Part shown: one piece after another, positions 22,380 through 59,175 of the stretch
Numbering within the stretch: the first letter of the stretch is position 1
Layout: every line of letters starts with the position of its first letter
Assembly: GCF_000787575.1 (NCBI RefSeq)
Contig: NW_012236527.1
Coordinates: 1,054,001 to 1,118,000, forward strand
DNA from: Acytostelium subglobosum LB1
Lineage: Eukaryota > Evosea > Eumycetozoa > Acytosteliales > Acytosteliaceae
DNA length: 64,000 nt
Direction: 5' to 3'
Made by a program: the position numbers and the translations under genes
The notes under the pieces: model-generated
Told to the model about the DNA's origin: nothing
Databases searched by the model: none
The model's input: only the letters and a program-made list of their open reading frames with translations

Positions 22380-22845
22380 TCAAGAAGATGAAGAATATTG
22401 ATCTTGATCATTGGTAACAAATTCTGTTAAGTATTTGTCTCCAAAAGCGACAGAAGCACCGGAATTTTCAAAAGCACCATAATTAGCTGTAGCAACAGCA
22501 CCACTATTAGCAGTAGAAGTAATACCCGCAGCACCAGCATTTGAAACATAATTAGGATTACCATCATTAGCACCAGCAGCACCAGCAGCAGCACCAGCTA
22601 CAGCAAAAGCAGCTACATTAGCAGAACTTCCTTGACCATCACCACTAGGTAATTTGGACTGTGCTTGGTATAGAATTTCATTCCTAGGAATGTAAAAGAA
22701 AAATAGAAATTAATAAATTAATTAAATAAAATTGGTTTGACCTCCTTTTTAATTACCCTCTACTATTTGAAGATACATGGTTCATTTCTCCATTAATAAA
22801 ATTGGAAATTAATAATATTATTAGTACCAAATATATATACTTCAT
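22380..22845 (-). CDS. Small secreted Ala/Gly-rich protein, two exons
   Basis: Exons complement(22757..22845) and complement(22380..22683) are joined by a 73-base phase-2 intron (GTAATT...CCTAG) and give 130 residues. Residues 1-19 (MKYIYLVLIILLISNFING) are a clear signal peptide. The mature part has an Ala/Gly-rich core (AGAAAGAAGAN) flanked by polar Asn/Ser/Tyr stretches, with no Cys, and ends in DQDQYSSSS. No family is recognised. Its exon plan matches two other genes in this window (26440-26717 and 58782-59175): a signal-peptide exon of 86-92 bases, then a phase-2 intron splitting a Gly or Trp codon. Confidence 0.7.
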
Positions 22846-23516
22846 TATTAAGTTCTAGGATATATATATATATTATATTCAAAATAGGTTTATATATCTG
22901 ATATTTGTGTCACTAGTTTGATAATTGTAATCATTTTATGGCTTCGGTAATAACTGGTTTATGGTGAAATTATTGTTTGTAAGATAGTATTGGTTTGGTA
23001 TCTTACATTATTCAATACCCAGTAAAAAGAGTGAACGAGGGAAGGGAGTGGGGGACGATCTGATTGAGTGAAGTAGTTTACCCATCCTATTAATAGGATT
23101 GTAAGTCAGTATTAGCCGAATCTGGCTCAATTATCCGTACATTCATACTATTTGGTCAATCATATTTTCATTCCTCACAGGCAATCTACCATCATAACTT
23201 TGTTAAGAGGTTCATTATATCTGAGTATAACTCCACAGTAATGCCTTGATTCTAGAACTTGAATGGACATATATAGAGAGGCACAATGCTATACTACTAG
23301 ACTTTGTTCATCAATAAAGGGTGACTGTTAGGAAAATACTTTCACTGACACTATGAACTTGATATTGAACTATGGATTCATGTCCTAGCTCTCACCTTTA
23401 AATGAATAAAAACAATTTATATTGATCAAAACAAGAACAAAAACGAACGATTGTTGAAACAGTTGTTTTCAAACATTGTGATACAGATAATATATATTAG
23501 AGAGATAGATTAAGAC
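22846..23516. other. Intergenic upstream of esf1
   Basis: 671 bases with no protein gene seen. The part 22990-23340 is less A+T-rich than its flanks and could hold an RNA gene, but I find no diagnostic motif or long stem in it. Confidence 0.5.
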
Positions 23517-25962
23517 ATGTCATCTAAGAACAACAATAACAAAGGTGGTGGTGGTGGAGGAATGATCACAGATAGTAGATTCAAGAAGGCACATAATGAT
23601 CCAAAGTTCAAACTAAAGAGACGTGCTGACTCTGCCATTCAACTCGATGAGAGGTTCTCAAAGGTTATGACATCAGATAGATTCAATGATAAAGGTATGT
23701 CTATGTTTGATTGATTGAGTGAATGAATGAATGAATGAATGAGGATGTTAACATTGTTGTGATCAAGCTCCCATCGATGAATATGGTAGGAAGTTAGCAA
23801 AGGAATCAAGTACCACAAAGAAGTTCAAGGATAACTTTAAGGTCAAGAAGGACGATAAGAAGAAACAACAACAGCCACAGAATAAGAAGGATGATGTAAA
23901 GTCTGATTCAAGATTCTCAATCCCATCAAAGTGGAAGGACTTGGAGGAGAAGGATGACGAAGATGCCGAGGAGCATGAAGAGAAGGAGTTGGTTAAGAAG
24001 CCAAAGGCAGCTGCAAAGGCCACAACCAAGAAAACACAGATCGTCAACAAGAACAAAGATGAGGAGAGCGAGGACGATGATAGCGAAGAAGAGAGCGACG
24101 AAGAGGTGGCCGATGGGGATACCGAGGAGTTGGTCTATGGTGGCTTCGAATACAATGATGACACAGAGAGCAGTGAAGAAGAGAATGATGAGGACTTCTT
24201 GAACCAGGGTCAGGAGTTGGACGAGGTCACACTGGAGGAGGAGGACGTACCAAGAGGAGACGCCACCAAACGATTCGCTATACTCAACTGCGACTGGGAC
24301 AACATTCATTCAAAGGACCTATACCTCATACTCAGCTCATTCTTGCCCAAGGGTGGAGTGCTGCTCTCGGTCACAATCTACCCATCGGACTTTGGTCTCA
24401 AGCAGATCGAGATCGAGAAGAGAATGGGTCCATCCAAGGACATCTTCAATCACACCAGATTAAAGACACCATCAGAGGAGACTGATATCCAGTATGATCA
24501 CAAGGAGGACCCCGACTCATTGGATGGCTCAGGCTTCAATCTGGTCAGTCTAAGAAAGTACGAGTTGTCTAAGCTCAAGTACTACTATGCCGTGGCCGTC
24601 TTTGATCGTTTGGAATCAGCGTCCGTGGTCTACGACGAATGTGATGGTCTGGAGATCGAGGACACTGCCAATGCCCTCGACCTAAGATTCGTCCCCGACG
24701 AGCAGGAGTTCACCAATCCACCAAGAGACACATGTACAGACATGCCAGAGACTGCACCAAACCTGGGCTTCACCACCTCGGTGCTCAAGGGCACATCGGT
24801 CGACTTCACATGGGACGTCGACAAGAACAGGAAGAAGGCCCTCACACAGAACTACAAGGAGGACTATGACGAGGACGAGGTGAAGCTGTATCTGGCCGAG
24901 CCAGAGACATCATCCGAGGAAGAGGAGGAGGACAAGAATTCAAGACTGCGTCTGAGGAACAAGTACAAGTCATTGTTGCTGGATGACGACGAGGATGGAG
25001 ACAACAAGTTGGAGGAGAAGGATGACCTTCAAGTCACATTCAAGACTGGTCTGGAGGATAATGACGATGACAGCAGCAGTGATGAAGATGGACTTAAGGT
25101 GGAGTTCAGTGATGGTGAGGTCCAGAGCAGTGGTGATGAGGAGGATGACGACGTCAGCGATGATGATGATGATGAAGGAGATGATGAAAGTGACAATGCA
25201 ATCGATCCACAGGATGAGGAGTGGACAAAGGATATAATGAATCGTGGCGATGACAGTGATGTAGACGAGACAGCTCAGGAGATCACGATCAAGACAGACC
25301 TACACAAGGTTGGAAAGAACCTGCTCAGGGAGAAGGAGAAAAGAGAGAATGGCACATTGTGGACCGAGTACATGGACAAGAAGAGATCAAAACAGAACGA
25401 AAAGATGAAGAATAAGAGACTAAAGGCTGAAGAGGAGGAAAAGAAGCGTGAAGAGGACGAGAAGAAGAGCAGGAAGGGCAAGAAGAAGCCACCCACAGCC
25501 GAGGAGCTCAAGTCCAAGGCCGAGCTGGAGTTGCTCATGATGGACGAGAATGACGGCGAGAAGAAAAAGGGATTCAACAAGAGGATGCTCGAGAGACAGG
25601 TCAAGGTCAACACATCAACCAATCCAAAGAAGAACAAGAAGAGGGCCAACGACCCAGAGGACACCTTTAAGATCGACACCAAGGATCCAAGATTCGAGAA
25701 GCTCTACAATGCATCAGACTTTGCGCTGGATCCAACTGATCCCAAGTTCAAACCAACAAATGCCGTCAAGGATCTGTTGAACGAGAAGAAGAGGAGAAGA
25801 GAGGAGGCCAACAAGAATGGAAATGGCAACAACATATCAAACTCGTCTTCAGCACCAGTCCAGGTTGAGAAGAAACAAAAGTCCGAAGCAGATACATTCA
25901 AGTCAATGGCAGAGAACATCAAGAAGAAGGCACAGCTTAACAAGATGAAGACTACAAGATAA
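23517..25962 (+). CDS. esf1: ESF1 homologue, nucleolar pre-rRNA processing factor
   Basis: Two exons, 23517..23694 and 23768..25962, encode 790 residues. ESF1 is an essential nucleolar protein needed for 18S rRNA maturation in the small-subunit processome. Diagnostic parts are the N-terminal DSRFKKAHNDPKFKLKRR, the DERFSKV...DRF block, a globular core starting RFAILNCDWDNIHSKDLYLI, long Asp/Glu/Ser tracts, a Lys-rich region, and the C-terminal NUC153 motif DPRFEKLYNASDFALDPTDP. The intron splits an Ala codon and has a TGATCAAG acceptor. Charge-biased composition is normal for nucleolar proteins. IMP4, in the same pathway, lies at 59.5 kb. Confidence 0.93.
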
Positions 25963-26439
25963 ATGAATAAATAAATAATACAACTGGACAGATCGAGTGA
26001 TTGATTGGGCATAACCTACAAAGTTGAGGTTGATACCACCTAAGTTGGGGATCTGCCCAGATGTGTCGAACGTTGTTCAGCGAGCGAAAGAACGCATTAC
26101 AGTAAATGCTGCTCCTGTAGTAACGACGAGTATTATTATTATATTTTGTTCCTTATGGAACAAATAATGTGTTTGTTTGTTCGGTGTGTTGATATGAGGG
26201 AAGTTTACAAATCAACGACTGTATTGGATATCTTTAATCGTAAGATATATAATAAATATATAATATTATTGTAGAATTTCTCAAATAATATTAAATTAAT
26301 TCTATTTTTGGAGATTTCAATTTATTATTTGTAAATTATATATTATTGGTAGATCAATAATACATATAAATACTTACAATCAATTGGTTCTAAATAGAAT
26401 ATTATTAATATATATATATATAAATTTATACTACTATCA
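25963..26439. other. Intergenic with short hairpin sequences
   Basis: 477 bases. The part 26010-26130 is of balanced composition in an A+T-rich setting. It includes AACCTACAA (26013-26021), one base off the small-RNA upstream element noted at 1042. At 26145-26164 there is a perfect 8-bp hairpin, TTTGTTCC-TTAT-GGAACAAA. No protein gene is seen. Confidence 0.5.
26145..26164. repeat. Perfect 8-bp hairpin
   Basis: TTTGTTCC and GGAACAAA are exact complements around a TTAT loop. It lies about 180 bases past the esf1 stop, at the right edge of a block of balanced composition. Confidence 0.6.
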
Positions 26440-26717
26440 ATGAATATAAAAATACTTTTAATAGTTTTATTGGCCCATCTATTATTTATTGGCAATTGTA
26501 ATTTTGTCGACAGCCAAAAAGAATGGTAAATAATTTATTTTTAATTATAGTTAACATTTGATAGTAATAATTAACCTTCTTTTTCTATGGTCCCCATAAT
26601 TATGATAGGAATTCTGAATCTTCTAGTGACCAGTTTAAGTATTTGCTGACCCTTTTCTTGGATTCTAATGAATTCCTTCTCCTAATAAATAAAAAACAAA
26701 GGTATAAAATCTATTAA
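26440..26717 (+). CDS. Small secreted protein, two exons
   Basis: Exons 26440..26525 and 26609..26717 with an 83-base phase-2 intron (GTAAAT...GATAG) give 64 residues. The signal peptide is MNIKILLIVLLAHLLFIGNC, then FVDSQKE. After the splice, which completes a Trp codon, come NSESSSDQFKYLLTLFLDSN and a basic tail ending in YKIY. The 3' end is uncertain because a GT at 26702 could start another intron. Without splicing the frame stops just after the first exon. Same architecture as 22380-22845 and 58782-59175. No function is recognised. Confidence 0.5.
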
Positions 26718-26811
26718 ACATATTAAATCTCCATTAGATAGATTTATAACTTATGACCTGTGGAGAATTTGGTTGGGTTTATCCCTCTATTTAAAATTTG
26801 GTGTCCTGGAT

Positions 26812-26842
26812 TTGGTCCTTATGCTCGATCCTCTTAGACCAA
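26812..26842. repeat. Short inverted repeat
   Basis: TTGGTC (26812-26817) and GACCAA (26837-26842) form a 6-bp stem around 19 bases, in the 160-base gap between two convergent stop codons. It may be a 3'-end hairpin. Confidence 0.45.
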
Positions 26843-26878
26843 GCGCGTTTATTATGGGCTGAATAGTGATATATATTA

Positions 26879-29131: not shown

Positions 29132-32100
29132 TTAGTTGCCCGGTGACTCGTACATTGGGTTGGCCATTGAGTTTCTACTCTGCTCGTACAATGGGTTGCT
29201 GGCGACTGAACCCTCGGAGAAGGCACCCTCGCCAAAGAAGGTGTCGGTGGGTGGTGCGCGAGATCTGAGCACACGCCACACTCCAAGTGCGATGAGTGCA
29301 GCGGCAACGGCAGATGCGGCAATGGCAGCGGACAACACGACGGTGTTGGATCCCTTGCCACCGGTGCCCGGTGCGGCGGCGATGGCCAGGTTGATCGACT
29401 TAGTGTCGGACATCATCGAGACGTTACGGTACTTGGGGTTGGCGTTGTAGCCCAAGTCATTGACGTAGACCACGAGGCTGTAGTTGCCGACAGTGTCAAA
29501 GCTGGCGGTGATGACGTTGAGGTAGTAGTTCAGAGCAGTGTTGCGGTCCACACAGGTGAACTTGTTGGACAACACAGTGCATGCAGACTGCGAGAGGAAT
29601 GGGGCAGAGAGGTTGCCGTTGGGGGTGAGTGCGCCAGTGGAGTCGGTGAGGCTGACGGTGAAGGTGATGCTGTTCTTGGAGGTAGAGTCGGGGTCAGTGA
29701 CATTGACGTTGACGATGCTGACTGGTGCGCCAACTGCGCCCAAGACCTCGGTTCTGGGCAGGGTAACGTAGGGTGGAATGTTGATACGTAGAACGTCCAC
29801 ATTGAACAGGGTGCTGGCGGTGTAGTTCTTGGCGTCGTAGGCCTGGACACGGAAGGTGTAGTAGCCATTACCAGAGAAACCTGGAGTTGGCTCGTATTGG
29901 ATACGCCACAGACCGTCGGCAGAACGCTTGATGCCCTGGCCAAACTCGATGGATGGGCCACGAGCGCCATCGACATAGTGGTAGACGCGGCCACCACTCA
30001 CGTACGAACCAAAGTTGCAGCGCAGTGTCTCCCATGGGAGGTCCAGCGATGTAATGTTCCAGGTGACCACGGTGGTCGAGTTGATGTACATCTCAATGCT
30101 GTTGCTGAGGTAGTTGGTAGAGTTAAAGGCAACATCGGAGCCGTTGAATGTGTAGGAGATGGGGATAATGACGGGTGGCTGGAACACCTGGATCACATCG
30201 ATCACAATGGTGTACAGCACGGATTGGTACTTCTCGTTGAGGACAAAGGTGAAGGTGTCGTAGTTGTTGCCCCACTGGTTGAGCTTGGGCACGTAGCGAA
30301 GCTGGAACTGAGCGAGAGCGTCGGCGCTGACCAGGCCAGAGGCGGGCACCTCGATCTCGTGTGTGCCATTGACCTTGAGGAAGAGCTGGCCGTGATGAGT
30401 GTACGACATGATCGTGAGCACGGCAGTTGGGACCTTGGACACCTGGAGCGTGATTGGAAGGGCGACGTTCTCGTAGGTGCTCAAGTGTGTGCTGCCCTCG
30501 TAGACGGGCAGGACAGTCTCCTCAATGTTGATCACAATTGGGTATGATGTCGATACTGTGTTGTGCTGGGAGAACACGCGGTAATAGATGGTCTCGAAGG
30601 GCACGCCAAACACATCCTTCTTGGGTGTGAAGGTGATGGTGGAGCTAGTGATATTGGCTTCAGTGGACTCGATGGGCACGCCACCAACAGAGAGCACGCC
30701 ACCGTATGGCAGCACGACAAACTGGTAGAACACAGTCTCGGGCTCACACACGGTGCCGACCAAAGTGAAGTCCTTGGCATGGTTCTCGAGAGTGTAGACA
30801 ACGCCAGCTGCGCCAACTGGTGTGGAGTACTGGTAGTTGTAGACGATTGAACCGTTGATTGGGCCACAGATGTTGCCACAGGCGGTGATCTCGTAGGAGT
30901 CGGTGTAGGAGGCCAACTCGTGGTCGGGCTGGTACTGCAACGCGTTGATCAATTTGCTAAAGACGAAGGGGTAGTTGTCGATGCGAACGCCATCATAGAT
31001 GAAGTGGCCGCGTTGTGGTGGCTTGGTGAAGCTGATGTTCCAAGATGGGTCTGGGTTGATCAGTGTTAGACTGATGTTGAAGGGCACTGGCAGTGGGGTC
31101 TCTGAGCACGCGCCATTGGAGACGATCACTGGTGGGTTGAACTCAATCACTGGTGGGTAGTTGACCATCAGGATCTTGACATCGACGCGAACAAGTGCAG
31201 AGGTAGATCCATGCTCATCGGTAACGTAGAAGTGGAACGAGTCATTGCCGAATGTGTTGGCGAATGGCTGGTAGAAGACGGAGAGGGGTGATTCGTCGGC
31301 AGGGGTGAAGGGGCCATTGTTAGACCAAACTTCTCCGTATCTTGGCACGTCGGAGACGGTGACAAAGAGCTTGCCAGTGTATTGGGGCATGAGTGGGTGG
31401 GAGCCAGTGAGCTGGAAGAGCGAGGAGTTGGCGTTCTCGTTAACGATGATCAGGTCGACTGGGTTGGCGACAGGTGGGTAGAAGACCACGGAACCTGTGA
31501 GGGTGATGGTAACGGTCTTGCTAACGGAGCGTCCACCAGAGTCGGTCACCTTGATGGTGAACTTGATGCCAGTGTAGATTGCGTTGATGGCGTGGTAGGT
31601 GATGGTTGAGGCGGCGGCATGTGTGGCAGACACATTGAAAACGCCCAACGAATATGGTGTGGCGGTAATGGCGTTGTTGCTGGCGTCCAAGAACGATCCT
31701 TGGATGGGTTGAGCGTCAGTGACCTCAACAGTTAGAACCTCATTGAAGTTGAGAGAGCCAACTGTGAAGGGAATCTGCTTTGACGAGTCGAGGGCCTGGG
31801 AGACTGAGTCGGGGATGTCGATGGTTGGGTCCACGGCAACACGGTTAACCTTTAGGGTGAGCGAGCACTGCACCTTTAGACCAAACTCGTTGGTGATGGT
31901 GAATGGCACGGATCTTTGGTCAGAGTCGGTGGTCAGAAGTGGCGTGAAGTCGAATGTTGCTGGAGATGAGAAGGTCTGGTCGTTGGAAATTGGGGTGTTG
32001 GCATTGGACACAACTCCAAGGGATGCCAGCGACTCGAGTCCATTGAGTGAAACGCTGAGAACGGTGGTGTCCTGGTCGGTACCATTGAGATTGAATGAGA

Positions 32101-35100
32101 TTGGTGCAATCTGTGTAGTCTCGATCGTGAGGTCGGAGCAGGTGGGTGGTGGATGGATGGTCTTGTAGACAAAGGTGATGATGCCGGTGGCGGTGGCACA
32201 GAGACTAGGTGATCCATTGTCACACACTTGGATGGTGTAGTTGGAGATAAAGTCAGCCTTGACAGTGGTGGGGATGGTGTAGGTTAGGTCGTTGGAGGGG
32301 AGGGTGGATGGCAGAACCGAGATGGGGTTGCCAGCGGAGTTCTTAAAAGATCCAAACTCTGGCAATGTGCCGACCATTGTGACAGTAAGCAAGTCGCTGT
32401 CGACATCGTTGGTGATGATGGGGAAGTCGGTTGATGGTTGTGCGCCACCAGTCTGGCCGTAAAGGTTGATGCTGGGTGCAGTCACAGATGGGTTGTGGTT
32501 GACGTGGGTCACGGTGATGTTGACGGTGACCTGATTGGATGGTGCTTGCAAAGAGTCCTGGACGTAGAAAATCAACTTGTCACTTCCAAAGAAGCCTGTG
32601 TTAGGCTTGTACACGAGTTGGAGTGGGACGACGTTGCCGGTGGCGACCAAAGCAGAGCCGTTGGGATAGAACAGACTTCCAGAGCCTGGCATCGAGGCAA
32701 AGATCACTGGCAAAACATTGTCGTATCTTGTTTGATCGGGGTCAGTGCCATCCAGGGTGAATATTGGCGAAGTACCATCCTCCAACATTGAGATTGGTGC
32801 AACTGACTTGGCTACGGGTGGGTTGTTGACGCGTGGACCATTGACAGCGATCGTGACGGTCTTGGTGTCCTTGCCTGCGCCGAGGTCAGTAACCTCGATG
32901 GTAAACTGGATGCCAACCTCATTGGCGTTAATGGCCTGGTAGTAGATGACATCAGAGGCAGCCCAGACATCAGTGACATTGTACACGCTGAATGTGTAGG
33001 GGATCATTGCTGGAGTAATGGTGCGGTTCTTTGAGTCGTAGAAGGTACCGCTCATTGGTGTGATGGCAGTGATGGTCACGGTGGCCGAGGTCTCAAAGCT
33101 CTGGATGGAGAATGGCATGGACTTAAGGGAGAATGGAGTCATGGTCTGGGTCGTGGGAATGGTCAAGGTTGGTGGCACGTAGTTCCTCTTGAGAATGATG
33201 TTAAAAGGACATTGGACGGACAACAGCTCAGAGTTGGTGACGAGGTAGGTACCGGTCACGTTGGTGTTCCTGGCGGTGCTGAGTGGGACGAAAGATAGGA
33301 TAGTCGGCGAGGAGTACTGAGTGTTGGTGTTGATTGGTGCTCCCGATGGGGCGAGAAGTGAGCCAATGGCCATGTTGCCAAAACCTGAAGAGACCGTGAT
33401 GGCCAGTGGTAGGTTGTTAATATCCGAGCCCATGAGGGTGATTGCCTTGGTGTCGAACTGGTTCGCGTTGAGCGTTATTGGACTGCAGGATGGTACCAGG
33501 GGCACGATGGAGATGGTGATTGAAATGGTACCATCAGCGCTGAGACAACCATCAGAGATGGAGAACTGGGCAGAGTCTGCTCCATATTGGTACAGCGAGG
33601 GGATGTATGTGAACGAGTCGACTGGCAGCGAGTACACAGTGTTGACAACGACTGGAACTGTTCCGTTGATGACGATCTTGCCCTTTGCAGGGATAGAGGT
33701 GAAGGTGATCGACAGGACGTTGTTATCCACATCGTTGGCTGGGATGGTGAACTGGATATTGGTGGCGGTTCCAACATTCTCGCGAACGGTGAATGAGGTC
33801 GATGAGGTGGTTGGGGCGTGGTTGTACTGGATGTGGACCAACTGACGACCAAAACCTGGGGCAGCCAGGGTAACAACTGGGTTGTTGATTGTGGGCAAGC
33901 TGGTCGAGTAGATGAAGCTGGTGGTGAAGTTGACCGCAGAGGTGGTGTTGGAGATCATGATTGGGGCAACGTTGTTGGTGGCGCCACTTGGGTCGGACAC
34001 GACCTTCAGACGCAAGTTGTAAGAGATTGGCACAATAAGGTTGTTGAGCAACTGGGTGAACCAGCTCGAGCCAGTCTTCCAATCGCAGTTGATACCATAG
34101 TTGTTGGCCAACCAGCTGTATGAAGATGAGGAGCCGAATGAGAAGACACCGAGTTGGATGTTGTACTTGGTCAATACGTCCTGGAGCTGCTGTGGAAGTG
34201 TGTTGTCGGTTGGTGCCAAGTTGTTATCGGTGATCAAGATGACCATCTTGACCGAGCCCTCTGGACGATTGGACCATGTGATCGATGGGATACCATTGAT
34301 CAACACATTGTATGGTACATTGGCGGTTGGGGCACCAGAGGTGAAGACCAACTGGGAGATATCGGGCAGGATGGATGGCTTGAGACTGGAGCGAAGTTGG
34401 AAGACGCTGGATGGGTTGGTGGAGTCTTGGAAGTCGGCAAGAGCATAGTTGGTAGTATCACGTCCGTTGAGGTCGGATATACTTCCGGTGAATGTGGAGA
34501 ACTGAGCTTGGACTTGAGAGTAGAGTGTTGATATGCTGGCCGATGAAGAGGTGTCGATGACAAAGAAGAGGTCCCATGGGATGAGGTATGGGTTGGTGAT
34601 GGAGGTCGAGAGCACAGCGGGGGCAGCTGCGTCCTTGGAGAGGTAGAGCTGCGAGGTTACTGGCTGCAGGTTGAAACCCTGTCTGAGGGCAAAGGTCTGA
34701 GAGACGAAAGTGTTGGGCTTGGTGGAGACACAACGCTGGACGAGGGTGATGTTACAGGACTTTCCGCTCCAACCTTGGTTGCAGACACAGCTTCCATCAC
34801 CCCATGTTCCATTGCTTGGGATACCATTGATACATGGGTCCATTGGGGTACACTTGGGTCCGTAGTTGTTTGGTGCACATTGGTCACAGAGTGGGCCGGT
34901 CCAGCCTGGGTCACAAGAGCATCCACCCGAGGTCCTGTTGCCGTTTCCACAGGATGAGGAGGTGACGTTGATGTAGAAGTATTGAGAGCCTCCAACCATA
35001 CCAATACCATCACTATCGATCAGACCCAAGTTAATAATGTACATGCCGAACTGGGATGCAGTTGGCGTCCAGACCAGGATAAGGGTGGATGAGGGGCCGC

Positions 35101-36300
35101 TTCTGACTTGTGGTACGTGCACCATTCCATCGGGAAGAGTTCCAATGTTGATGGACACTGTGCTGGTAGACTGGGGCGACGTGCCCTTAATGGTGATCTG
35201 GGACTCTGAACGGGAGGGGATGGTTCTAACGCTGTTGGCAGCTGGTGTTGGTGGTGTGTTGAACACGGGTGGCAACTTGGTAACTGGTGTCGTGCTGACG
35301 TTTAGGATAAAGTCCACTGGGATGGTGGTGTCCTTGCTCTTAATCAAGGTCTGGGCGCACCAAACTCCAATCTGGGATGGGACGTACGAGACGAAACCGG
35401 TGGAGCTGATCGAGAGTCCTGGTGGTTGAGAGCCAGGCATCTGGGTGCTGGAAGACAGCGAGTAGGCCAATGTTGAGCCATCAGTAACAAGGGCTGGGAT
35501 TTGGAATGTGTTGGTGACGCCCATCTGAATTGGGATAACTGGCAACAATGATGACACGGCAGAGACCTGTCCTAGTTTTCCACGGACTGGTGTTATAGTG
35601 GACTCAAGGTTCCAGTATTCTATAATATTATATTAAATAAAATTAATTAATGAATTATATAATTAAATATAATTATTATGATTAAGGGGGAAACAACTTA
35701 CGATCAGCATTATTATTCAATTCGGAGATTCTGCAGCAGTCAGAGTAGGAGATGGTCTGGGCAGAGTAGGAGCTGAAGGTGGTGGTGTAGACCATGTTGG
35801 CGGTCATCCAGTCGGCGGCATGGTCGACGTTGTTGATTACAAAGTTGGTGGTGATTGATGACGATCCTACATTGACGTAGCCATAGTCAAATGAATCACC
35901 GACTGCAAAGTTTTGCCAGAAGAAGCTGTACCTAAAGGCAGCCTTGAACGTGAAGGTAAAAGTGAGATCATCTGTAGTTGATCCAACCCATGATAATGTT
36001 CCATATCTAAAATGTGATGCTATTTTTGATTGATCGATTGATTGATTGATTGATTGATGGTGTTAGTGAGTGAGTTGGGGTTGAGGGCGAGGGCGAGGGC
36101 GAGGGCGAGGGTAATTGGGTTGAGTTTGTTTCCCGAGTTATTACTTCCCGATCGGGATAATAATAATAATAATAGTAATAATAATAATAATAATAATTAT
36201 ATGTTTGAGTGAATGTATGAGGGATAATACCATTTGATATGGAAATTAACAAAAGGACAATGATGGAACAAAGAAGTGTGGGCCGGTTGATTGGTGCCAT
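29132..36300 (-). CDS. Sib-like integrin-beta-related adhesion receptor (copy 1)
   Basis: Coding exons are complement(29132..35619), complement(35702..36006) and a signal-peptide exon starting at 36300. Together they give about 2288 residues. The ectodomain has EGF-like Cys clusters (CSCDPGWTGPLCDQC; CVCNQGWSGKSCN) and a von Willebrand A domain with a complete metal-site motif in FVIDTSSSAS (codons about 34541-34555). A long series of beta-sandwich repeats follows. Near the C-terminus are an Ala-rich membrane helix (LSAAIAASAVAAALIALGVW) and a short tail with two NPxY motifs (NPLYEQS, NPMYESP). This is the layout of Dictyostelium SibA-E, phagocytic adhesion receptors that bind talin through the tail. 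Exon 1 ends in phase with exon 2 only at 36227, where TA stands in place of a GT donor. The nearest GT (36230) shifts the frame. Confidence 0.85.
36083..36198. repeat. GAGGGC and AAT microsatellites inside the first Sib-like gene's intron 1
   Basis: Nearly five units of GAGGGC at 36083-36111, followed by an AAT/TAA run at about 36157-36198. They make this intron longer (about 220 bases) than other introns in the window. Confidence 0.8.
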
Positions 36301-37348: not shown

Positions 37349-40300
37349 TTAGTTGGCACCCTCATAGAGTGGGTTGGCAGCACTGTTGGGAGACTCGGTG
37401 TACAGTGGGTTGGAGGAGACTGATCCGTCAGAGAATGGGCTGTCGCCAAAGAAGGCATCGGTAGGTGGAGCACGGGCCTTGACAATTCTCCACACCGCCA
37501 GGGCGATGGCGGCGGCGACGACGGCAGCCACGGCAATGGCAACCGATAGGATCGTTGTGTTGTTTGTCTTGCGAGTGGTCGATGCGCCGACGGCGATCAC
37601 GACGGCCTTGGTGTCAGAGAGACGTGACACGTTTCTAAACATTGGATCGGCGTTGTAACCGAGATCGTTGACATAGACGACCATCTGATAGTTGCCCTCC
37701 TTTTGGATGGTGACAGAGAGCAAAGACAGGTAGGTGTTGAGCACGCTGTTTCTGTTGACACATGTCATCGAGTTGTTGGCAACAATGCAGTCTGAGCCTC
37801 TGTTGGCGAATGGCATCGAGAGTGAGACGATGTTCTCATCGACGAGGACATTGGTGTCGTCGCCCATGGTGATGTTGACAGTGAATGTGATGTTGTTGTT
37901 TGAAGTTGAATCGGGGTCGATCACCATGACGCTGTTGAAGTTAACTGGTGAGCTGACGGTGGTGTTCTGCTGCGTCTGGTTGAGGTAGACGACAGGGGGC
38001 TCATTGACACGCAGTACATTGACCTTGAGGTTGCCAGTGCCAGCCAAGGAGTTGACTGGGTCAGCGACCTTGATGGTGAATGAAGAGTAACCCTGGCCTG
38101 ATCTGCCTGGGGCGGGGGTGTAGACCATGCGCCACAATCCGTCGGCGGACTGGTTGACCACTGATCTGAATGTGATTGGCTCGCCCTTATTGTCTTCGAG
38201 TGTCTCGTTGAACTGATGCAGGAGACCGCCAGAGAATGGTGAGGCGATGCTCGAGACGAGCTCTCTTGAATCAATCTCGCGAGAGGTGGCGTTGAAGGTG
38301 ATGACAGTTGATGAGTTGATGTAGATGTTGATGTTGTCCTGCACGATTGGCAACACGGCACCCTTGCTAGTGTATGAGATTGGGATGAACACTGGAGCTC
38401 TGGGCACGTGGGTCACGTCAATGTAGACGGTGTAGGCCTCAGAGGTGTAGGTCTGGTTGAGGGTGAAGGTGAAGCTGTCAATGTTGATGCCAGAGACGTC
38501 GACTGGTGGCATGTAGTACAGGTTGTAGACGTTCATGAACATGGACACACCAGTGGTTGGAATCTCCACATGGTAGGTCGAGTTGAGGGCCTGGTACAGC
38601 TTGCCGTGGCCAGTGAAGTGGGTGATGGTCATGGTGAATGGGGATTCGTTGGGAGCGTGGGCGTCAATGCCGATGGGCAGACCAGTGTTCTCCTGGGTGG
38701 TGAGGTTGCGCGAGCCACTGTACAATGGCACTGGGCGTACAAAGATGGTTAGTGGGTAGGATCTCGAGGCCAAGTTATGACGGTTTGTGACGACATAGTT
38801 CAGGGTCTCCAATGGGCCATTGTGGTCGGCGGTGTCGAGGTCGGACAGACCGGCATTGGGCTGGTAGGAGAGGGTGGTGGTGGTGAGTACCTGGGTGGTC
38901 GAGGTGATTGGCACGCCGTTGACGGACAAGGTACCGAACAATGGGAGGGAGGAGATTTGGTAGGTGAGCGAAGCGACATCCTCACAGTCGTTACCGGTGA
39001 GCTTGACTGCGACTGGCACATTGGTGACAGTCTCGAAGGTATTGGCGGAACCAGTTGGGGCTGCAGCGATGTACAACACGTTGATCAGGCCAGTGGCGGT
39101 GTTGCAGATGTTGGCACCGTAGCAGGCAGACACTCCGAAGGAGGTGTTGTAGCTGACGAATCCGGTGGAGGTTGGCTGGAAGGTGAGCGAGGAGCCGTCA
39201 GTGACGACTGCTGGGACGGCTGCAACGGCGACGCCATCCTGGAAGATGGTGCCGTCAGTTGGCAGAGAGGTGATCGAGACGACCAGGTTGTCCATGTTGT
39301 TGATGTTTGAAACATCGATGGAGAAGGCGACCTTGACGGCGGGGACGACAGCGCAAGTCAACTCAGACACGATGGTGAGTGGGCTTAGCTCGATGGTGGG
39401 TGGGTAATCGACCTTGGTGACAATGACCTGGACAGTGAGGTACTCGGACTGCTTGCCAACGTTGTCTTGGACGTAGAACTCGAATGAGTCCTGGCCGAAG
39501 AAACCGTAGGCTGGCTTGTAGGCGACAGAGTGTGGCGACAACATGTTGGTGGAGAGTGTGGTGCCGTCACCGTTGACGATGGAACCATTCATTGGCTGGG
39601 TGGAGATGAACACCTGGAGGTCACCGCTGTATCTTGGCTTCAATGGGTGGGTACCGGCCAAGGTGATTGGGTCAGAGGTGATGCCCTGCTTGGTGGTGAT
39701 TGGGCCAGCTGGGGTGGCGACTGGTGCGTAGTCGACGAGAGAACCATTGACGTTGATCAAGACGGTGGTCAAGTAGGAGCCCTGGATGTCAGTGATCTCA
39801 ATGTCGAACGAGACACCAGGGTAGATGGCGTTGGCAGAGGTGTAGGAGATCGAGCCAGATGCAGAGCCGGATGAGACGTCAAAGTTTCCGAGGGAGTATG
39901 GACCGGCGTTGATGGCAATGTTGTTGGCATCGGCGAACTGACCAATCACTGGGGTGACCGACTTGATGGTGGCCTGGATACCGGCTGGGTTGAAGCCATA
40001 GTCGATGATCTTGAAGGGGATGACCTGGGTGGTGTTTGGTGCGACGTTGATTGGTGAGTTGATCATCAGAACGGGTGCCACGTAAACACGGGTCACATTG
40101 ATCAAGAGAGAGCAGGATGCCTCAAGGTCGTGCTGGTTGACGATGGTGTAAGAGATTGGCACAGAGTCGGTTGGGGCGGTGGACAGTGGAGTGAAGGTGA
40201 ACAGGGTGGAGGCAAGGTACTGCTGGCCCTCTACAACATCGACACCGGCGGCAGAGATGGAACCAAAGCTGGTGAGCGAGGCCAGGTATGGGAAGGAGAT

Positions 40301-43300
40301 CTTGGCGGTGTTGAGGTTAGGATCCATGTACTGAACGTTGAAGGTCTTGGCGTTGAGCTGGTCCGACTCGATCTTGGTGCCAATGGTGCAGTTGGGTGGT
40401 GGGTAGACAGTAGTGTACAAGAAGACTATGTTGCCTGTGGCTGAGACACAGCCTCCGTTCTTGTCGCAACCACGGATCGAGTAGGCGTCGTTGAAGTTGA
40501 CTACGACCGACTCATCAACCTGGTAGGTGATGGCAAGGGAGGTGAGTGCAGTGTTGATGGTGACTGGGCTACCGTCCTGGTTCTTGAAGACACCCTGAGT
40601 TGGGAGGGCGGTGAACGAGACGGTCACATCATCGTTGACGTCCACATCGGTGGCGATGAGGGTGACAACCTTTGAGGGTGAGCCACCTCCGGTGATGCCG
40701 TACAAGGTGATGTCTGGTGCGTTGACGGATGGAAGAGTGTTGACGAACACGACGTTGATGTTGACAGTAATGATGTTGGACTGGGCGTTCATGGTGTCGA
40801 CGACGTAGTACGAGAAGCTGTCAACGCCAAAGTAACCTTGGACTGGCGAGTAAATCACTCCCAGTGGGGACAGTTGACCGGCGGCGAGTGGGCCACTGGT
40901 GCTGCTGAGGAGCTGGCCATGACCTGGGGCCTCGTTGATGACAACAATGAGGTTCTGGTCGTAGGTTGGACGATCGGCATCGTTTCCGACGAGGCTGATG
41001 ACGGCAGAGTCGACATTCATGTTGGTGGAGACGAGGGCCACTGGCATGGCGACTGGGGCAGTGTTCATTCTTGGGCCGACGACGTTGATGATGACGTTGG
41101 CGGTGCTTGAGAGACCGGCGGTATCAGTGACCTTGATGGTGAACTTGATACCCTGCTCGTTGGCATTGATGGCAGTGTAGAAGAAAGAGGCCGAGGCAGA
41201 GTGACTGCTACCCAGAGCAAAGGTGGACAGGGTGAATGGCGACACGGTGATGGGGTTGCTGGCAGTGTCCAGGAACTTGCCGCTCATTGGGGTGGTAGTG
41301 ACCGAGACAACCAAGTTATCACCAAAGTCATCGTCGTTGACCGAGAATGGGATGGTGAGGGTGGTGTTGGGGGTCATTGTCTGGTTGGTGTTGATCGAGA
41401 TAGTTGGAGCAACGTTGACTCTGGCAATGGTGAAGGCGATTGGGCATTGAGTGGTGAGACCGCCGCCAGTGATGAAGATCACGGGGATCGACACTGTACC
41501 AGAGGCAGCAGAGGCTGATGGGTCAAACTCGAACGAACCGGACTGGCTGTACTGGGTGTTGGCAGAGACTGGAGCACCGTTGTACAGGATTTGGCCGAAT
41601 CCACCGAGGGTGGCAAGCGAGCTGAACGAGACAACGAGGGCATCTCCGTTGGGGTCGGAACCCTTGGGTACGAATGCCTTGTTGGTGAACTGATCGGTGG
41701 TGAGAGCGTCGTTGTTGCAGGTTGGTGGGAAGCTGACCTTGGTCACGGTGAAGGTGACTGCGCCGTTGGCTGGGAGACAACCGTCGTTGACAGTGTAGTT
41801 GAGGAAGTCAACACCAAACTTGTATGGCAGCTGGACGAAAGTGAACTGGCTGCCGGCGAGGTTGTAGACGGTGCCAGTGGCGACGTTGGTGCCGTTGAGC
41901 TTGACGGTGCCGGTGGCGGGCAAGTGGGAGAAGGTCACAGTGAGCACGTTGTTGTCAATGTCGCTGCCTGGAACTGGGAAGCTGGTGGTGACGGCGGCGG
42001 TGGCAACCTCGGCCATGGTGAAGGCAGTGTTGAAGGTGGCTGGGGCGTGGTTGGTCTGAACCTGGACAGTCTCCTTGCCGTAACCTGGGACACGGAGGGT
42101 AACAACTGGGTTGATGGCGGTGACAGAGCTGTTGTAGATGAAAGAGGTGACGTAGACTCCGGTTGATGGGTTGGTGTATCCAGAGACAAAACCAGGGTCC
42201 TGGACGACGAACTGCATGTTGTTGGCCAATGGTCCGACGACATTCTTGGCAAGCTGGGTGTACCATGGATCACCGGTTGGGGTCCAAGCCCACTTGGTTC
42301 CGATGGATGGTGTGATCCACGAGTAGGATGCGACTGATTTATAATCGTTGGCACAGAAGACACCGAGCAGGACGTTGTACTGAGCGAGCAACTTGATGAG
42401 GTTGTCACGGATGGTGGGGTCTGGAACGAGATCATTGTCAGTAACAAGGATGATTGAACGGATTGAGCCTGGAGTCCAGGTGATGGTTGGGATTGCACTG
42501 ATGAGGGCTTGGTACTGGATGTTGACCTGTGGTGTGCCGGTTGTCAATGGGATAGTGGCGACCTCGGTGGCGATGGAAGCCTTGATGGTGGACATCAGCT
42601 GGAAGGTGTTGGCCTGGCTGGCAGAGTCGGAGAAGTAACCAAATCCGTAGTTGACCTTGGAGCGGTAGGTTGGTACTAAGACAGATGGGAACGAGGTGTA
42701 AGTGGCCTTGAACTGGGGGTACTGGGTAAGATTGGCGGGGGCAGACAGATCGAGCACAATGAAGGCGTCGAGACCGAGAGTTTGTGGGTAGGCGATGGTG
42801 GAGGTAAGGGCGTATGGGGTGACAGAGTTCTGAGACAGGTAGATCTGGACTGCGCTTGGCTGCACGTTGGAGGTGCCGCGGCTCTCAGTGATGGTGAAAC
42901 TGGCCTTGTTTGGATCACAACGCTGGACATAGCTGCTGTTACAGAACTGTCCGTACCAGCCTGGGTCACAAATGCAAGTGCCGTCTCCGTTGAGACCGCT
43001 GTTGATGGTGCCATGGTCACAGGGTGGGTCCTTGATACAGTTTGGACCGTAGTAACCCTTGGCGCACTCCTGACAGTTGGTACCGTTCCAGCCGACCTTG
43101 CATGGGCATGGGCCTGGGGTACAGGTTGGCATGATGACCTTGATGTAGAAGTAGCGGACACCGCCACCCTCAGTCATCTTGACGCCGTTCGAGTCGGACA
43201 GACCAATGTTGATGATGTAGACACCAATGTCGGCAGTGGTGGGAGTCCATTGGAGGACGACATCTCCAGTGCCTCCATTGTTGGTCTGTGGCAGAACCTT

Positions 43301-44483
43301 CATTCCGTAGGGCACCTCACCGATGGCGATGGTAACGGTGGTGGACGCACGGGGGGTGGTTCCTCTGATAATGTTCCAGCCGGCTGGGATTGGACTGTTG
43401 GCTGGGAGCGTGAGGGTAGTGCCTGCGTCGGGCGTTGGCTCAATCAGGATTGGTGGAGTGGATGTGGGGGGTGGCTTGTTGGACACTCTAATAAGGAAGT
43501 CTACGACAATGGTCGAGCCGGTAGGGCTGCTCTTGGAAATCTTGATCTGGGCGGACCAGAGACCAAGCTGAGTTGGGGTGTACGAGCAGACACCAGTGTT
43601 GGCGTTGACGGACAGTCCTGGGGGTTGCTGGGGCAATCCAGAGGACAGGGAGAAGGTGAAAGAGGTGGTCTGAACATCAATGACTGGGATGGTCCAGGTG
43701 TTGGTCTGGCCGATGTAGGCATCGATAACGGCCATCATACTGGAGACTGGCGATGAGTTTAAGACACTATCATCCCAATGTCCGTTCTCCATCTCACACC
43801 AAGCCTCAATGTAGAATGGTTCTATATTGTTAGTTTGATTGATTGATTAATTAATTAATAAGAGTATTAATGGCAAATAATAATATATAATACATACGGT
43901 TGGCATTGTTGTTGAGCTCGGTAAGTCTGTTTCCGTTCTCATAGTAGGCGTAGAAGTTCTCGTGGCCATATGAACCAGAGTAGGCGGTGAAGGTGAACTC
44001 GGCGGTGACAATGTCGGCAATTGGGTCAACATGGTTCACCAAGAACTTGGTGGAGAAGGTGTCGTCGAACCAGTATGGGAACCATTCGACGGTGACATCA
44101 CCATAGTTGAATGTGCTTCCGACCTGCAAGTTGAGACCCTCAACCTGAGTGAAGTAACTGTTTCTGAAGGCAGCCTTCAGAGAGAACTGGATATACTTCC
44201 AATTTGGAGTACGCTTCCAAGTGAGTTGTCCATATCTAAAATGTGTAGCTAATTATCATTTAAATAATATTGTGTGTGTGTGTTTGATTGATTATTTGAT
44301 TGATTGATTGATTGATTGAGTGTGTGTGTTAGTGTGTGTGGTCCTGATTGTGATCATCACAAATCAATGAATGAATGATCATTAACATGTAATATACATA
44401 CCGTCGGCCACATCTGGAATTGTAACAAGGGCTAATAAAATAGTAATACAACTGAGCCATAGGATTGTCCTATGGATCGCCAT
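37349..44483 (-). CDS. Sib-like integrin-beta-related adhesion receptor (copy 2)
   Basis: Three exons, complement of 44398..44483, 43898..44235 and 37349..43821, are in frame for 2298 residues. Exon 1 encodes a signal peptide (MAIHRTILWLSCITILLALV). The EGF-like Cys repeats (PCPCKVGWNGTNCQEC; CICDPGWYGQFCN) precede a VWA-like domain whose metal-site motif, near residue 499, reads DLSAP instead of DxSxS. About a dozen beta-sandwich repeats follow. The membrane helix is LSVAIAVAAVVAAAIALAVW, and the tail has two NPLY motifs. It is a tandem paralogue of the gene at 29132-36300, with the same intron positions. By analogy with SibA it would bind particles or substrate outside and talin inside. The altered metal site suggests a changed or metal-independent ligand mode. 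Confidence 0.88.
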
Positions 44484-54501: not shown

Positions 54502-55907
54502 ATGAGTGAACAAGAGTTTTCGAAAGGTTTAGCTGGCATCTATGTTGCCAAGTCTGCTGTGTGCACAGTTGGTGTCAAGGGCACTGGACTAAACTACAGA
54601 GGCTATGACATAAAAGGTACCAATCATACTCATTCAAGGACAAGATGATACTTACTTACTAACTTGCGACGACAACGATGATGACACTGAACAGAGCTTG
54701 CTGCCAAGTCCAACTTTGAGGAGGTAGCCTACCTCTTGATATATGGATCATTGCCAACTGACCAGCAATTGCTCAACTACAACAGAACATTGGCATCATT
54801 GCGTGATATCCCAGGTGCTCTCAAGGATTGTTTGGAGCGTATCCCAGCCAATGCACATCCAATGGATGTTCTTCGTACCGGTTGTTCAATCTTAGGAGTA
54901 TGTACATCATCATCTGCCCAATAATCACATCATCTGCTCACTCAATCAATCAATCAATCAAACATAGACTTTGGAGCCAGAGAGTCCAACGAATGATCAT
55001 TACCAGATCTCAAATAGATTGATCGCATCGTTTGGATCGATGTTGTTGTACTGGCATCATTGGGTCTGTGGAGGAAAGAGAATCAACTGTGTGACATCAC
55101 CAGATGATACAACTGCCAAGCACTTCTTGAAGCTGCTCAGACAGGATGGTTTGGAGCCATCGCCACTGCATGTGCGCGCCGTCGACGTCTCCCTCATCCT
55201 CTATGCCGAGCACGATTTGGCTGCATCCTCCTTTGCTGCACGTGTTACTACCTCTACCCTCACCGACTTTTACTCTGCCATCTGCACTGCCATCGGTACC
55301 CTACGCGGACCCCTACACGGTGGAGCCAACGAGGCTGCCATGAAGCTGCTCGAGCAGTACCCAACGCCAGACGAGGCGGAGGCTGGAGTAAGTGTCAAGA
55401 CAAGGACGGGGCATAAGGCCTGGCCTACCTTGGGCCAACTCACTCACTCATTCAATCCCTCACTCAATCAATCAACCAACATAGATCATGGGTATGCTGT
55501 CAAAGAAGGAGTTGATTATGGGATTCGGACATAGAGTGTACAGGAATGGAGATCCAAGGAATCCAATCATCAAGGAGGTGTCGAGGACACTTAGCCAGGC
55601 ACCAAACGGCAACCCCCAGCTGTTTGCCGTGTCGGAGCGCGTCGAGCAGGTGGTGCAGCGCGAGAAGAAGATGTTCCCCAACCTGGACTTCTACTCCGCG
55701 TCGACCTACCAGCAGGTGGGCATCCCAACACTCTTCTTCACACCAGTGTTTGTCATCTCGAGAACGACAGGCTGGGCTGCGCACATCATCGAGCAGCGTC
55801 AAGACAACAAGCTGATCCGACCATCTGCCATCTACACTGGTCCAGACACCAGGCCATACGAGCCAATCCAAAACCGCAAACCTGTAAGACAACAGTCGTC
55901 CCTCTGA
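54502..55907 (+). CDS. Citrate synthase (2-methylcitrate synthase-like type)
   Basis: Four exons, 54502..54616, 54695..54897, 54968..55387 and 55485..55907, encode 386 residues. The enzyme condenses oxaloacetate with acetyl-CoA, or propionyl-CoA in the methylcitrate subgroup. Catalytic blocks are present: GPLHGGANEAAMKLLEQ (first His), GFGHRVYRNGDPR (second His) and FPNLDFYSAS (Asp). The short length and TLTDFYSAICTAIGTLRGPL resemble bacterial-type citrate/methylcitrate synthases rather than the longer mitochondrial form. There is no mitochondrial presequence. The protein ends in SSL, at best a weak peroxisomal signal, and the peroxisomal citrate synthase of dictyostelids is a plausible orthologue. 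Introns 2 and 3 end in CAAT runs. Confidence 0.9.
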
Positions 55908-56302
55908 TCAGGTCTTGGCAGGCACAGAGGGGGGTCGATGCCATCTTCATAATCAATCACATCCACTTATACCAATCATTCAATCATCCATTCATTCATT
56001 CATTCGNTTCATTCAATCACCAAAGTGATAATATTAAGCGATTGATAGAGTTAGTTTAATGCAATAGTGTGATTCATAAATGAACGTGCCAACTGGAACG
56101 CAATCGGTGATCATGAAGGATGATCAGTCACGTGGTCTTTGATTGAACATTTATAAATAAATTTATTTGTGGATGGAGTGATGATGTTTCCCTCATGATC
56201 AAATTTAACGAGTTGACATCCATGTCTTACACTTCATTCATTCAACCATTCATCAGTTCAATCCATTCATTCAATCAATCAATCCCCATCTTCTATCAAA
56301 TA
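55908..56302. other. Intergenic with ATTC repeats and an ambiguous base
   Basis: 395 bases with no gene. A CATT repeat at 55989-56015 contains the unresolved base at 56007, probably a sequencing slip in the repeat. CAAT runs at 56261-56284 immediately precede the secreted-protein start. Confidence 0.6.
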
Positions 56303-56800
56303 ATGAAATATTTATTATTAATTTTATCATGCTTATTGGTAACCATTGTTAATGTATCAGCTGATAGTATAACCATTCCAAATGATTATATTACTATTTG
56401 TGCCACTTGTAATAATGAACCAGGTGGTGTACAGAACTTTTATCAATGTGGCAATAAGTCTTGTTCGACTTTCAAGGTTGGAAGTTGTGTACCAAACATT
56501 AATATTTGTTCTGGCAACGTAACTTCGTCACCACCAACATGGGTCTCCTACTCCTGGCCACCAACTCATATCATAATGGGAGAGAAGGGTGACCTAATGA
56601 CCACATTGTTTAGTGATGCCGAGTGCAAGATGGTTACCTACGGACCAAATCCAGTTTGGTGTGGACGATGTGCAATGTACAATGCCCTCACTCCAACATG
56701 TCCCGAGAACTTCCTCTACACTGGATCTTCCAGCCATCATTCAGTATCCATGGTCCTCTCAGTCCTATCCATAATCATTTCTTTAATCAATATTCTTTGA
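56303..56800 (+). CDS. Secreted, probably GPI-anchored Cys-rich protein
   Basis: A single exon of 165 residues from the ATG at 56303. The open frame reaches back to 56195, but the upstream part lies in Ser/Phe/Ile-rich leader sequence and lacks a signal, whereas 56303 gives an ideal signal peptide (MKYLLLILSCLLVTIVNVSA). The mature region has about ten Cys, including ICATCNN, QCGNKSCSTF and VWCGRCAMY, plus two NxS/T sites. The C-terminus is SSS then a hydrophobic tail (VSMVLSVLSIIISLINIL), the pattern of a GPI attachment signal. No family is recognised. A cell-surface role is inferred from the signals only. Confidence 0.75.
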   Translation: MKYLLLILSCLLVTIVNVSADSITIPNDYITICATCNNEPGGVQNFYQCGNKSCSTFKVGSCVPNINICSGNVTSSPPTWVSYSWPPTHIIMGEKGDLMTTLFSDAECKMVTYGPNPVWCGRCAMYNALTPTCPENFLYTGSSSHHSVSMVLSVLSIIISLINIL

Positions 56801-56896
56801 AAAAAATAAATAAAAGTCTGATGAGCGAGAGCTCTAAATCTCCCAAGATTGATTCTCATCAACCCAAACATCATTATCATTTTAGATCAATCAAAG

Positions 56897-58615
56897 ATGG
56901 AACAAGATATTGATGTATTGTTCAGACGATTGATCAAGAATTGTTATATCTCCAAACTGTTATTCAATCAAGTCCATGACATCCACATGATAATGTTGGA
57001 GCGGACCATCATTCACACACTCAATCAATCAACATCATCAACAACATCAAGTAATAAGAAGAAGAAGAATAAGAATAAGAAGTATATAAACCAACCAAGG
57101 AAATGGAAAGACTTTGTTGAACATTGGATTCAATGTGTCGACACATACTTTGGCGTACGTGATAGTGACATCAGTGAGCCAGTCAAGTTTGAACATGGCC
57201 CCTTCAACATGTATCAAGGCCATCACTATATCATCAAGTACCTACTCGAACATGATCTTCAAAGATTAAAGACGACATTATATGCATTGGATGTAATGTC
57301 TTCAATAGGCAGGATGGACTTGGTTCGATATCTACATGATAACAATGTTGTGGCATCATCAAATGCGATGGACCATGCTGCCACACTCGACATCTTCATC
57401 TTTCTCCAACAACATCGAACCGAGGGTCATACACTCTATGCGTTGAGCATAGCTGCGTCGCATGGCCGCCTCCCAATAGTTGAGCATATACTCAACACGG
57501 TCACGGACAAGGAGTTGGACTATAAACTTGCGTTGAACCAGGCAGCTATACAAGGACATGTTGATGTGTTGCGATTCATTCATCATGATGGTAGCTATGC
57601 CAAGCCGGGACTCAGGACTCTGTTCAGAAATGATGATACCATGGATATTGCAGCAAGGAATGGCCATCTCGAAGTTGTCAAGTACCTCCACGATAATGAA
57701 TATGGGGGCTGCTCACAAGATGCAATGCACTTGGCATCCATCAAAGGCCATTTGGATATCGTTCGATTCCTACACGAGAACCGCACAGAAGGTTGCTACA
57801 CGCATACAATGGACTTGGCGGCAAGGAATGGACACTTGGACATCGTAACCTATCTCCACAACAACCGCACAGAAGGTTGCGGGTCAGATGCCATGGAGTT
57901 TGCATCAAGAAAGGGACACCTGGGCGTGATACGCTTTCTTCATCATCATCGCACAGAGGGCTGCACATTTGAAGCGATATATAACGCATCACTGAAAGGA
58001 CATTTGGAGATTGTTCGCTTCCTGCATGAGCACAGGACCGAGGGCTGCACTGATGATGCCATGGATTTTGCTGCTCTCAATGGCCATCTGGACATTGTTC
58101 GATACCTTCATGAACATAGGACTGAAGGATGTACCCATGATGCCATGGACTATGCTGCCATGTATGGTCATTTGGATGTTGTTCGATTCCTTCATTACAA
58201 CAGGACTGAAGGATGCAGTGTGTATGCCTTGAACAATGCAGCGCGGTATGGCTGGATTGACATTGTTATGTTTCTGTTGGACAATCGAACAGAGGGATGC
58301 ACTGTGAAGGCCATGGACAAGGCTGCAAAGAATGGACATTTGGACATTGTCAAGATACTTCATTCAAGAGGGAAGGAGTGCAGCCAGCTTGCCATTGAAA
58401 ATGCGGCGCAGAAAGGACGTTTAGAAGTTGTCAAGTTCCTCAGAGAGAATAGAACTGAGGGACACATCCCCCAAGCCATCTCCATTGCAAAGTACAATGG
58501 ATTTGATATGATTGTTGAGTATCTTTCCACGCCCCTACCCACACAATCATTATTATCATCATCATCATCATTAATGGAAGGAGCTACCAGTCTCAAGAGG
58601 CAATTATCAAGGTAG
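56897..58615 (+). CDS. Ankyrin repeat protein with 28-residue RTEGC units
   Basis: A single exon of 572 residues. The N-terminal 120 residues contain a Ser/Lys-rich insert and resemble the cap of dictyostelid ankyrin proteins. From about residue 140, and regularly from about 57700, the protein is built of ankyrin-type units such as NGHLDIVRYLHEHRTEGCT. The period is 84 bases (28 residues), shorter than the canonical 33. Regular units continue to about 58500 and the tail is Ser-rich. Such proteins are numerous in social amoebae and probably mediate protein contacts. No catalytic domain is seen. The frame is open from 56849, but 56897 is the first ATG after a non-coding-looking TTTTAG. Confidence 0.8.
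   Translation: MEQDIDVLFRRLIKNCYISKLLFNQVHDIHMIMLERTIIHTLNQSTSSTTSSNKKKKNKNKKYINQPRKWKDFVEHWIQCVDTYFGVRDSDISEPVKFEHGPFNMYQGHHYIIKYLLEHDLQRLKTTLYALDVMSSIGRMDLVRYLHDNNVVASSNAMDHAATLDIFIFLQQHRTEGHTLYALSIAASHGRLPIVEHILNTVTDKELDYKLALNQAAIQGHVDVLRFIHHDGSYAKPGLRTLFRNDDTMDIAARNGHLEVVKYLHDNEYGGCSQDAMHLASIKGHLDIVRFLHENRTEGCYTHTMDLAARNGHLDIVTYLHNNRTEGCGSDAMEFASRKGHLGVIRFLHHHRTEGCTFEAIYNASLKGHLEIVRFLHEHRTEGCTDDAMDFAALNGHLDIVRYLHEHRTEGCTHDAMDYAAMYGHLDVVRFLHYNRTEGCSVYALNNAARYGWIDIVMFLLDNRTEGCTVKAMDKAAKNGHLDIVKILHSRGKECSQLAIENAAQKGRLEVVKFLRENRTEGHIPQAISIAKYNGFDMIVEYLSTPLPTQSLLSSSSSLMEGATSLKRQLSR
57690..58490 (+). repeat. 84-bp tandem repeats coding for ankyrin units
   Basis: The segment coding for RTEG(C/H) recurs at 84-base steps, for example near 57780, 57864, 57948, 58032, 58116, 58200 and 58284. 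Units have diverged at the DNA level but keep exact length. Confidence 0.75.
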
Positions 58616-58781
58616 ACATCCTCGAGTTATTGTAGATTGATATCAATTGAATGAATGATTAAATGTGATCACATTTTCATAATCATTTTATTGTCTCTCA
58701 ATTCTTTAATATGATTGAATAGAGATAATTATCATTACTCCATTCTGGATATCTCTCCCTGAATCACCTACTAATCCATCT

Positions 58782-59175
58782 TTATTCTCTTTCATGGTTG
58801 AAGTTGTTGTCTTTGTTGAATTGATATGTATGATGGGATTTATGTTTGGTATTAGTTTTGGGTGGTGGATTTGAATAGGTTCTTTCTCCATCTGGGTTGA
58901 TATTGTTGTCTCTGTTGAATTGATTTATAAGATTGGACTTATGATTTGTCATAAATTGGGGACCTGGATTTACTACAGGATCTAGATATCTATCATTATC
59001 AGCATCCCTATATTATAAAATAAAGTAAAAGAATAAATCAGTTAATTATATTATAAAATAAAGAATAATAAATATATAATTACCCAAAAGCATAGGAATC
59101 TTGAGAATACCTATTTGCATATATAGAATTAAAAAGAATACCTAATACTATAAGTAAAATAAATAAATTCTTCAT
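58782..59175 (-). CDS. Small secreted Asn/His-rich protein, two exons
   Basis: Exons complement(59084..59175) and complement(58782..59007), with a 76-base phase-2 intron (GTAATT...TATAG), give 105 residues. The signal peptide is MKNLFILLIVLGILFNSIYA. After the splice, which completes a Gly codon, the mature part is very hydrophilic (DADNDRYLDPVVNPGPQF). It contains two related segments, HKSNLINQFNRDNNINPDGE and HKSHHTYQFNKDNNFNHERE, an internal duplication of about 20 residues. There is no Cys. It matches the exon plan of 22380-22845 and 26440-26717. Function unknown. Confidence 0.65.

Follow-up and report, generated by a model that had tools for sequence, protein, structure and literature searches.

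In eukaryotic genes for secretory proteins, a signal-peptide exon that ends at an intron close to where the peptide is cleaved is a described arrangement, with an excess of phase-1 introns at that position (PMC1626468, citing Tordai and Patthy, in the portion of that paper used here). Among social amoebae, the 20% of developmentally essential proteins that are unique to Dictyostelia are, in the section of the study cited, mostly extracellularly exposed or secreted (PMC4931340). In yeast, thymine-rich intergenic DNA has been shown to favour transmembrane segments, at least in the part of the work relied on here (PMC7005711). For Acytostelium subglobosum, the relevant part of the genome report describes gene models derived from cDNA, from homology to Dictyostelium discoideum and from a dicodon-based predictor, and cDNA reads from four stages, at 0, 8, 16 and 24 h (PMC4334915).

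Here we analyse a window of 64,000 nucleotides from A. subglobosum LB1 (contig NW_012236527.1), in which an initial annotation had described three genes for small secreted proteins with one exon architecture, and had read them as a rapidly evolving family perhaps built by exon reuse. Our preferred reading, to which we give a probability of about 0.6, is that genes 1 and 3 represent two distinct AT-rich orphan genes, absent from the annotation, for small Cys-free secreted proteins, and that gene 2 is a doubtful model lying in AT-rich intergenic DNA.

Gene models and exon layout

Rebuilding the models from the sequence reproduced to the base the coordinates, first-exon lengths, phase-2 introns, donors and split codons (GG|G in genes 1 and 3, TG|G in gene 2) of the initial annotation (Table 1). 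The genes had also been called unlinked; all three fall inside 37 kb of one contig. Gene 3 has a second in-frame ATG 15 bases upstream of the modelled start, and in gene 2 another acceptor in the same frame lies 18 bases downstream of the modelled one, so that exact exon and intron lengths are model choices.

Table 1. Predicted genes, exons and introns, with two comparator first exons; positions are those of the window.
Feature	Position	Strand	Remarks
Gene 1	22380-22845	-	exons 89 + 304 bases, intron 73; 130 aa
Gene 1, exon 1 (89 bases)	22757..22845	-	ATG, predicted signal peptide, about 10 mature residues; signal-peptide score 3.61
Gene 1, predicted intron (73 bases, phase 2)	22684..22756	-	GG|GTAATT...CCTAG|G; 19% GC; TAA immediate if unspliced
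Gene 1, exon 2 (304 bases)	22380..22683	-	Ala/Ser/Gly/Asn-rich, without Cys; strong coding evidence
Gene 2	26440-26717	+	exons 86 + 109 bases, intron 83; 64 aa; doubtful
Gene 2, exon 1 (86 bases)	26440..26525	+	signal-peptide-like; score 3.08
Gene 2, predicted intron (83 bases, phase 2)	26526..26608	+	TG|GTAAAT; 101 bases with alternative acceptor
Gene 2, exon 2 (109 bases)	26609..26717	+	doubtful; without coding evidence
Gene 3	58782-59175	-	exons 92 + 226 bases, intron 76; 105 aa
Gene 3, exon 1 (92 bases)	59084..59175	-	107 bases if in-frame ATG at 59190 is used; score 3.53
Gene 3, predicted intron (76 bases, phase 2)	59008..59083	-	GG|GTAATT; 9% GC
Gene 3, exon 2 (226 bases)	58782..59007	-	Asn/Asp-rich, without Cys; 20-codon imperfect duplication; good coding evidence
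Comparator: signal-only first exon of SAMD00019534_032020 (82 bases, phase 1)	44402..44483	-	accounts for first 77 annotated residues
Comparator: signal-only first exon of second Sib-type gene (70 bases, phase 1)	36231..36300	-	own model

In each model the first exon encodes a strongly hydrophobic N-terminus of the signal-peptide type, as judged by hydropathy score alone (3.08-3.61). These first exons are poor in GC (23-26%, against 28-41% in the second exons and 9-21% in the introns) and sit in intergenic dips of 24-35% GC in a window that averages 46%. When the intron is retained, the donor leads directly into GGG TAA or TGG TAA, so that the full protein would come from spliced RNA only. The mature parts contain no Cys, the predicted gene 2 protein has a Leu-rich stretch, and an AATAAA lies 8 bases past the stop codon of gene 1. 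The duplication pointed out in gene 3 (58935-59003 together with the repeat next to it) is real, with 47 of 60 bases identical. Its 13 differing bases are split 4/4/5 across codon positions 1/2/3, an even spread that, for so small a number, gives no sign of purifying selection.

Two other open reading frames were noted. An intronless frame of 165 aa beside gene 3 (56303-56800, +), which starts like a signal peptide, contains several Cys and ends in a hydrophobic tail, looks by eye like a small GPI-anchored surface protein; a Pfam search with the longer open frame at these positions gave no match reaching the curated cut-off. The other is an ankyrin-repeat frame of 588 aa (56849-58615, +) whose many repeats are near-identical (Pfam).

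Coding evidence

The second exons carry the case for genes 1 and 3. Their open length exceeds chance expectation in gene 1 (p = 0.001) and gene 3 (p = 0.0035), with p = 0.061 for gene 2, and the same two exons show 3-base periodicity (0/2000 for gene 1, p = 0.001 for gene 3, p = 0.545 for gene 2). In gene 1, G occupies 49% of first codon positions. These tests give good support to genes 1 and 3 but none to gene 2; the proposal of genes for secreted proteins looks sound for the former pair and doubtful for gene 2, whose second exon is indistinguishable from chance. Periodicity was absent from the first exons of all three (p = 0.86, 0.23 and 0.49). Our own gene finder, trained on GC-richer genes (median coding GC 49%), called none of the three.

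Scanning for a signal exon followed by a phase-2 intron gave three instances in 224 kb, whereas 120 local order-2 Markov shuffles averaged 0.05 and never yielded more than 1; the thresholds (exon 1 of 80-110 bases, intron of 60-105 bases, signal score of at least 3) were fixed after the three genes had been seen, and the scan took gene 2 with its alternative acceptor and gene 3 with its upstream ATG. In the 160 kb scanned beyond the window, no signal exon of phase 2 reached the threshold; the five signal-exon candidates there were all phase 1.

Annotation, homologues and origin

The proteins predicted from genes 1 and 3 were compared with a protein collection that includes annotated A. subglobosum LB1 proteins, some of them from the same contig. 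Gene 1 drew 201 candidates and no match at E <= 10, and gene 3 drew one candidate sharing words and no match at E <= 1, in a comparison limited to proteins of 0.55-1.75 times the query length, which a very different annotated model would escape. Since the species' own proteins were in the collection, both genes look unannotated. This agrees with the earlier suggestion that such genes are easily missed, and it points to a lineage-restricted distribution. An annotation approach like the published one would plausibly pass over genes of this kind. Within the 30.7-Mb genome a search with each of the three proteins (E <= 1) recovered the two exons encoding it and nothing else, no Pfam family was found for any of them at E <= 1, and a literature search, judged by titles and abstracts, turned up no paper describing them.

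The orphan status of genes 1 and 3 raises the question of their origin. They may have arisen de novo and independently, AT-rich intergenic DNA readily encoding signal-like starts; this is compatible with our preferred reading, and we regard it as possible if rather doubtful. It would fit the low GC of the first exons and of the dips in which they lie, the failure to find homologues (protein collection, genes 1 and 3) or paralogues (own genome, all three), and the yeast precedent cited above. The second exon of gene 1 speaks against it, being like that of an established gene in its strong codon periodicity and its preference for G at first positions.

Is there a family?

Alternatively, genes 1 and 3, and perhaps gene 2, could form a local family, in which duplication inside 37 kb copied a signal exon together with its GG|GTAATT intron of phase 2, and the mature exon was replaced or diverged past recognition. 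We consider this unlikely. It draws on a likeness between the first exons of genes 1 and 3, the only pair among three to suggest kinship, seen at the DNA level in region-wise codon shuffles (p = 0.003) and in dinucleotide shuffles (0/300 as alike) and at the protein level (p = 0.02). The likeness does not extend to gene 2, for which the corresponding values are p = 0.17 against gene 1 and p = 0.66 against gene 3 in DNA, and p = 0.12 and p = 0.37 in protein. Nor does it reach beyond the first exon: local alignments of the mature parts score like shuffles (p = 0.52, 0.48 and 0.96 for the three pairs), in keeping with the initial annotation, which had found these parts unrelated by eye; the 200 bases upstream show no likeness (p = 0.76 to 0.99), and that of the introns is marginal at most (p = 0.06, 0.05 and 0.77).

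The donors are a second point in favour of a local family. All three genes use GTAAAT or GTAATT, which occur in only 4 of 191 predicted introns; this census covers 61 genes called by our own gene finder, and because that program is biased to GC-richer genes (2/191 introns lie below 21% GC) it may under-count AT-rich introns and says little about them. The other features of the junction are common, phase 2 accounting for 62/191 predicted introns and G as the last exon base likewise for 62/191.

Pattern searches of the 30.7-Mb genome, with reversed patterns in the same genome as controls, bear on both local and genome-wide reuse. The literal form of the architecture (ATGAA start, [GT]G|GTAA[AT]T, TAG|G) has seven matches, three of which, those with a signal peptide, are genes 1-3; the reversed controls gave 12. 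Variants of this form gave 17 matches for other starts (ATGA followed by C, G or T; control 19), 2 for other -2 bases (control 13), 36 for other bases after TAG (control 41) and 10 for GTAAGT/GTATGT donors (control 17), none of them with an open signal exon scoring at least 2.4. A looser form did exceed its control (150 versus 88), and among the matches listed (100 of 150) we checked 86 distinct starts, none of which had an open first exon scoring at least 2.4. The nearest other match among those listed, an open frame at C39:565332, scored 2.3, below the 2.4 threshold. The initial annotation had named a lack of enrichment of this architecture as refuting its proposal, and for the literal form that test came out negative; the looser form showed an excess of matches, but no further open signal exon among the starts checked. 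Within the limits given next, genome-wide exon reuse is rejected for the literal form.

Within the limits of these searches, which were confined to ATGA starts and the donors tried, with acceptors beyond TAG in the looser form only, every open signal exon of the literal form lies in the one window, which would favour a local family; the patterns were, on the other side, fitted to the three genes afterwards. The idea of a family built by exon reuse is thus not supported for the three genes together, given mature parts that score like shuffles, no paralogue found in the genome and no enrichment of the literal form, and what is left of it is a trace in the first exons of genes 1 and 3.

An early intron is also ordinary in this genome. 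The window contains tandem Sib (integrin-beta-like) genes (29132-36300 and 37349-44483, both -), with Ig-like and EGF-like Pfam domains and, in the first gene only, a VWA domain. One Sib-type protein of the window corresponds to SAMD00019534_032020 (100% identity over the residues searched), and both genes begin with a signal-only first exon (Table 1). Two further genes of the HFRYG type elsewhere have first exons of 64 and 64 bases, again phase 1. With an intron right after the signal exon common in secreted genes here, shared ancestry is not needed to account for the layout of genes 1-3.

That some of the models are chance open frames is quite improbable: gene 2 invites the suspicion, its second exon being open by chance at p = 0.06 and lacking periodicity, 19 of 4092 ATGs in its shuffled flanks begin an open signal-like exon, and all three genes escaped our gene finder, itself biased to GC-richer genes, but genes 1 and 3 passed both exon-2 tests and shuffled sequence seldom yields this class. 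Where genes 1 and 3 are concerned the explanation falls on the coding evidence, and we give it hardly any weight.

Possible roles and significance

Returning to our preferred reading of genes 1 and 3 as separate orphan genes, the signal peptide would route the nascent chain into the endoplasmic reticulum, cleavage would probably fall near residues 18-20, to judge by eye, and the low-complexity chain would then be exported. Guessing from composition, we would tentatively see the Ala/Gly/Ser/Asn-rich product of gene 1 as a structural component of the extracellular sheath or the stalk matrix, the most likely of its possible functions. The Asn/Asp-rich product of gene 3, with its duplicated segment, might be a disordered surface or matrix protein, a suggestion of the same kind that we hold more loosely still.

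Small, AT-rich, spliced genes are easily lost in annotation, and the secretome of this social amoeba, which lacks cellular stalks, is therefore probably under-counted. Should the signal exon of genes 1 and 3 prove to be shared, the two would offer a small test case of an export signal reused with replaced cargo. Under local duplication, one signal exon and its rare intron would have been kept and the exported part swapped or wholly diverged, as in venom or effector families, with the process confined to one 37-kb neighbourhood; we think it improbable that this happened.

Comparison with known systems

As far as the cited part of PMC1626468 describes them, eukaryotic signal exons resemble those of genes 1-3 in encoding little beyond the signal peptide and in their G|G junction, but the introns here are phase 2 and lie about 10 residues beyond the likely cleavage site. 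The Sib genes of the same genome are alike in having an early intron, behind a signal-only first exon of 64-82 bases. They differ in the phase of that intron (phase 1), in its position exactly before Ala-Ser/Thr-HFRYG, in their donors (GTATGT or GTATTA) and in encoding huge membrane proteins with Pfam domains. Like the Dictyostelia-unique proteins, in so far as the cited section of PMC4931340 characterizes them, the products of genes 1 and 3 are predicted to be secreted and have no outside homologue that we could find; unlike them, genes 1 and 3 have no known developmental role and are apparently unannotated. The yeast de novo transmembrane proteins, going by the part of PMC7005711 used here, share with genes 1-3 an AT-rich intergenic setting and a hydrophobic start, whereas the genes described here are predicted to be spliced and, in the case of genes 1 and 3, have a long, coding-like second exon.
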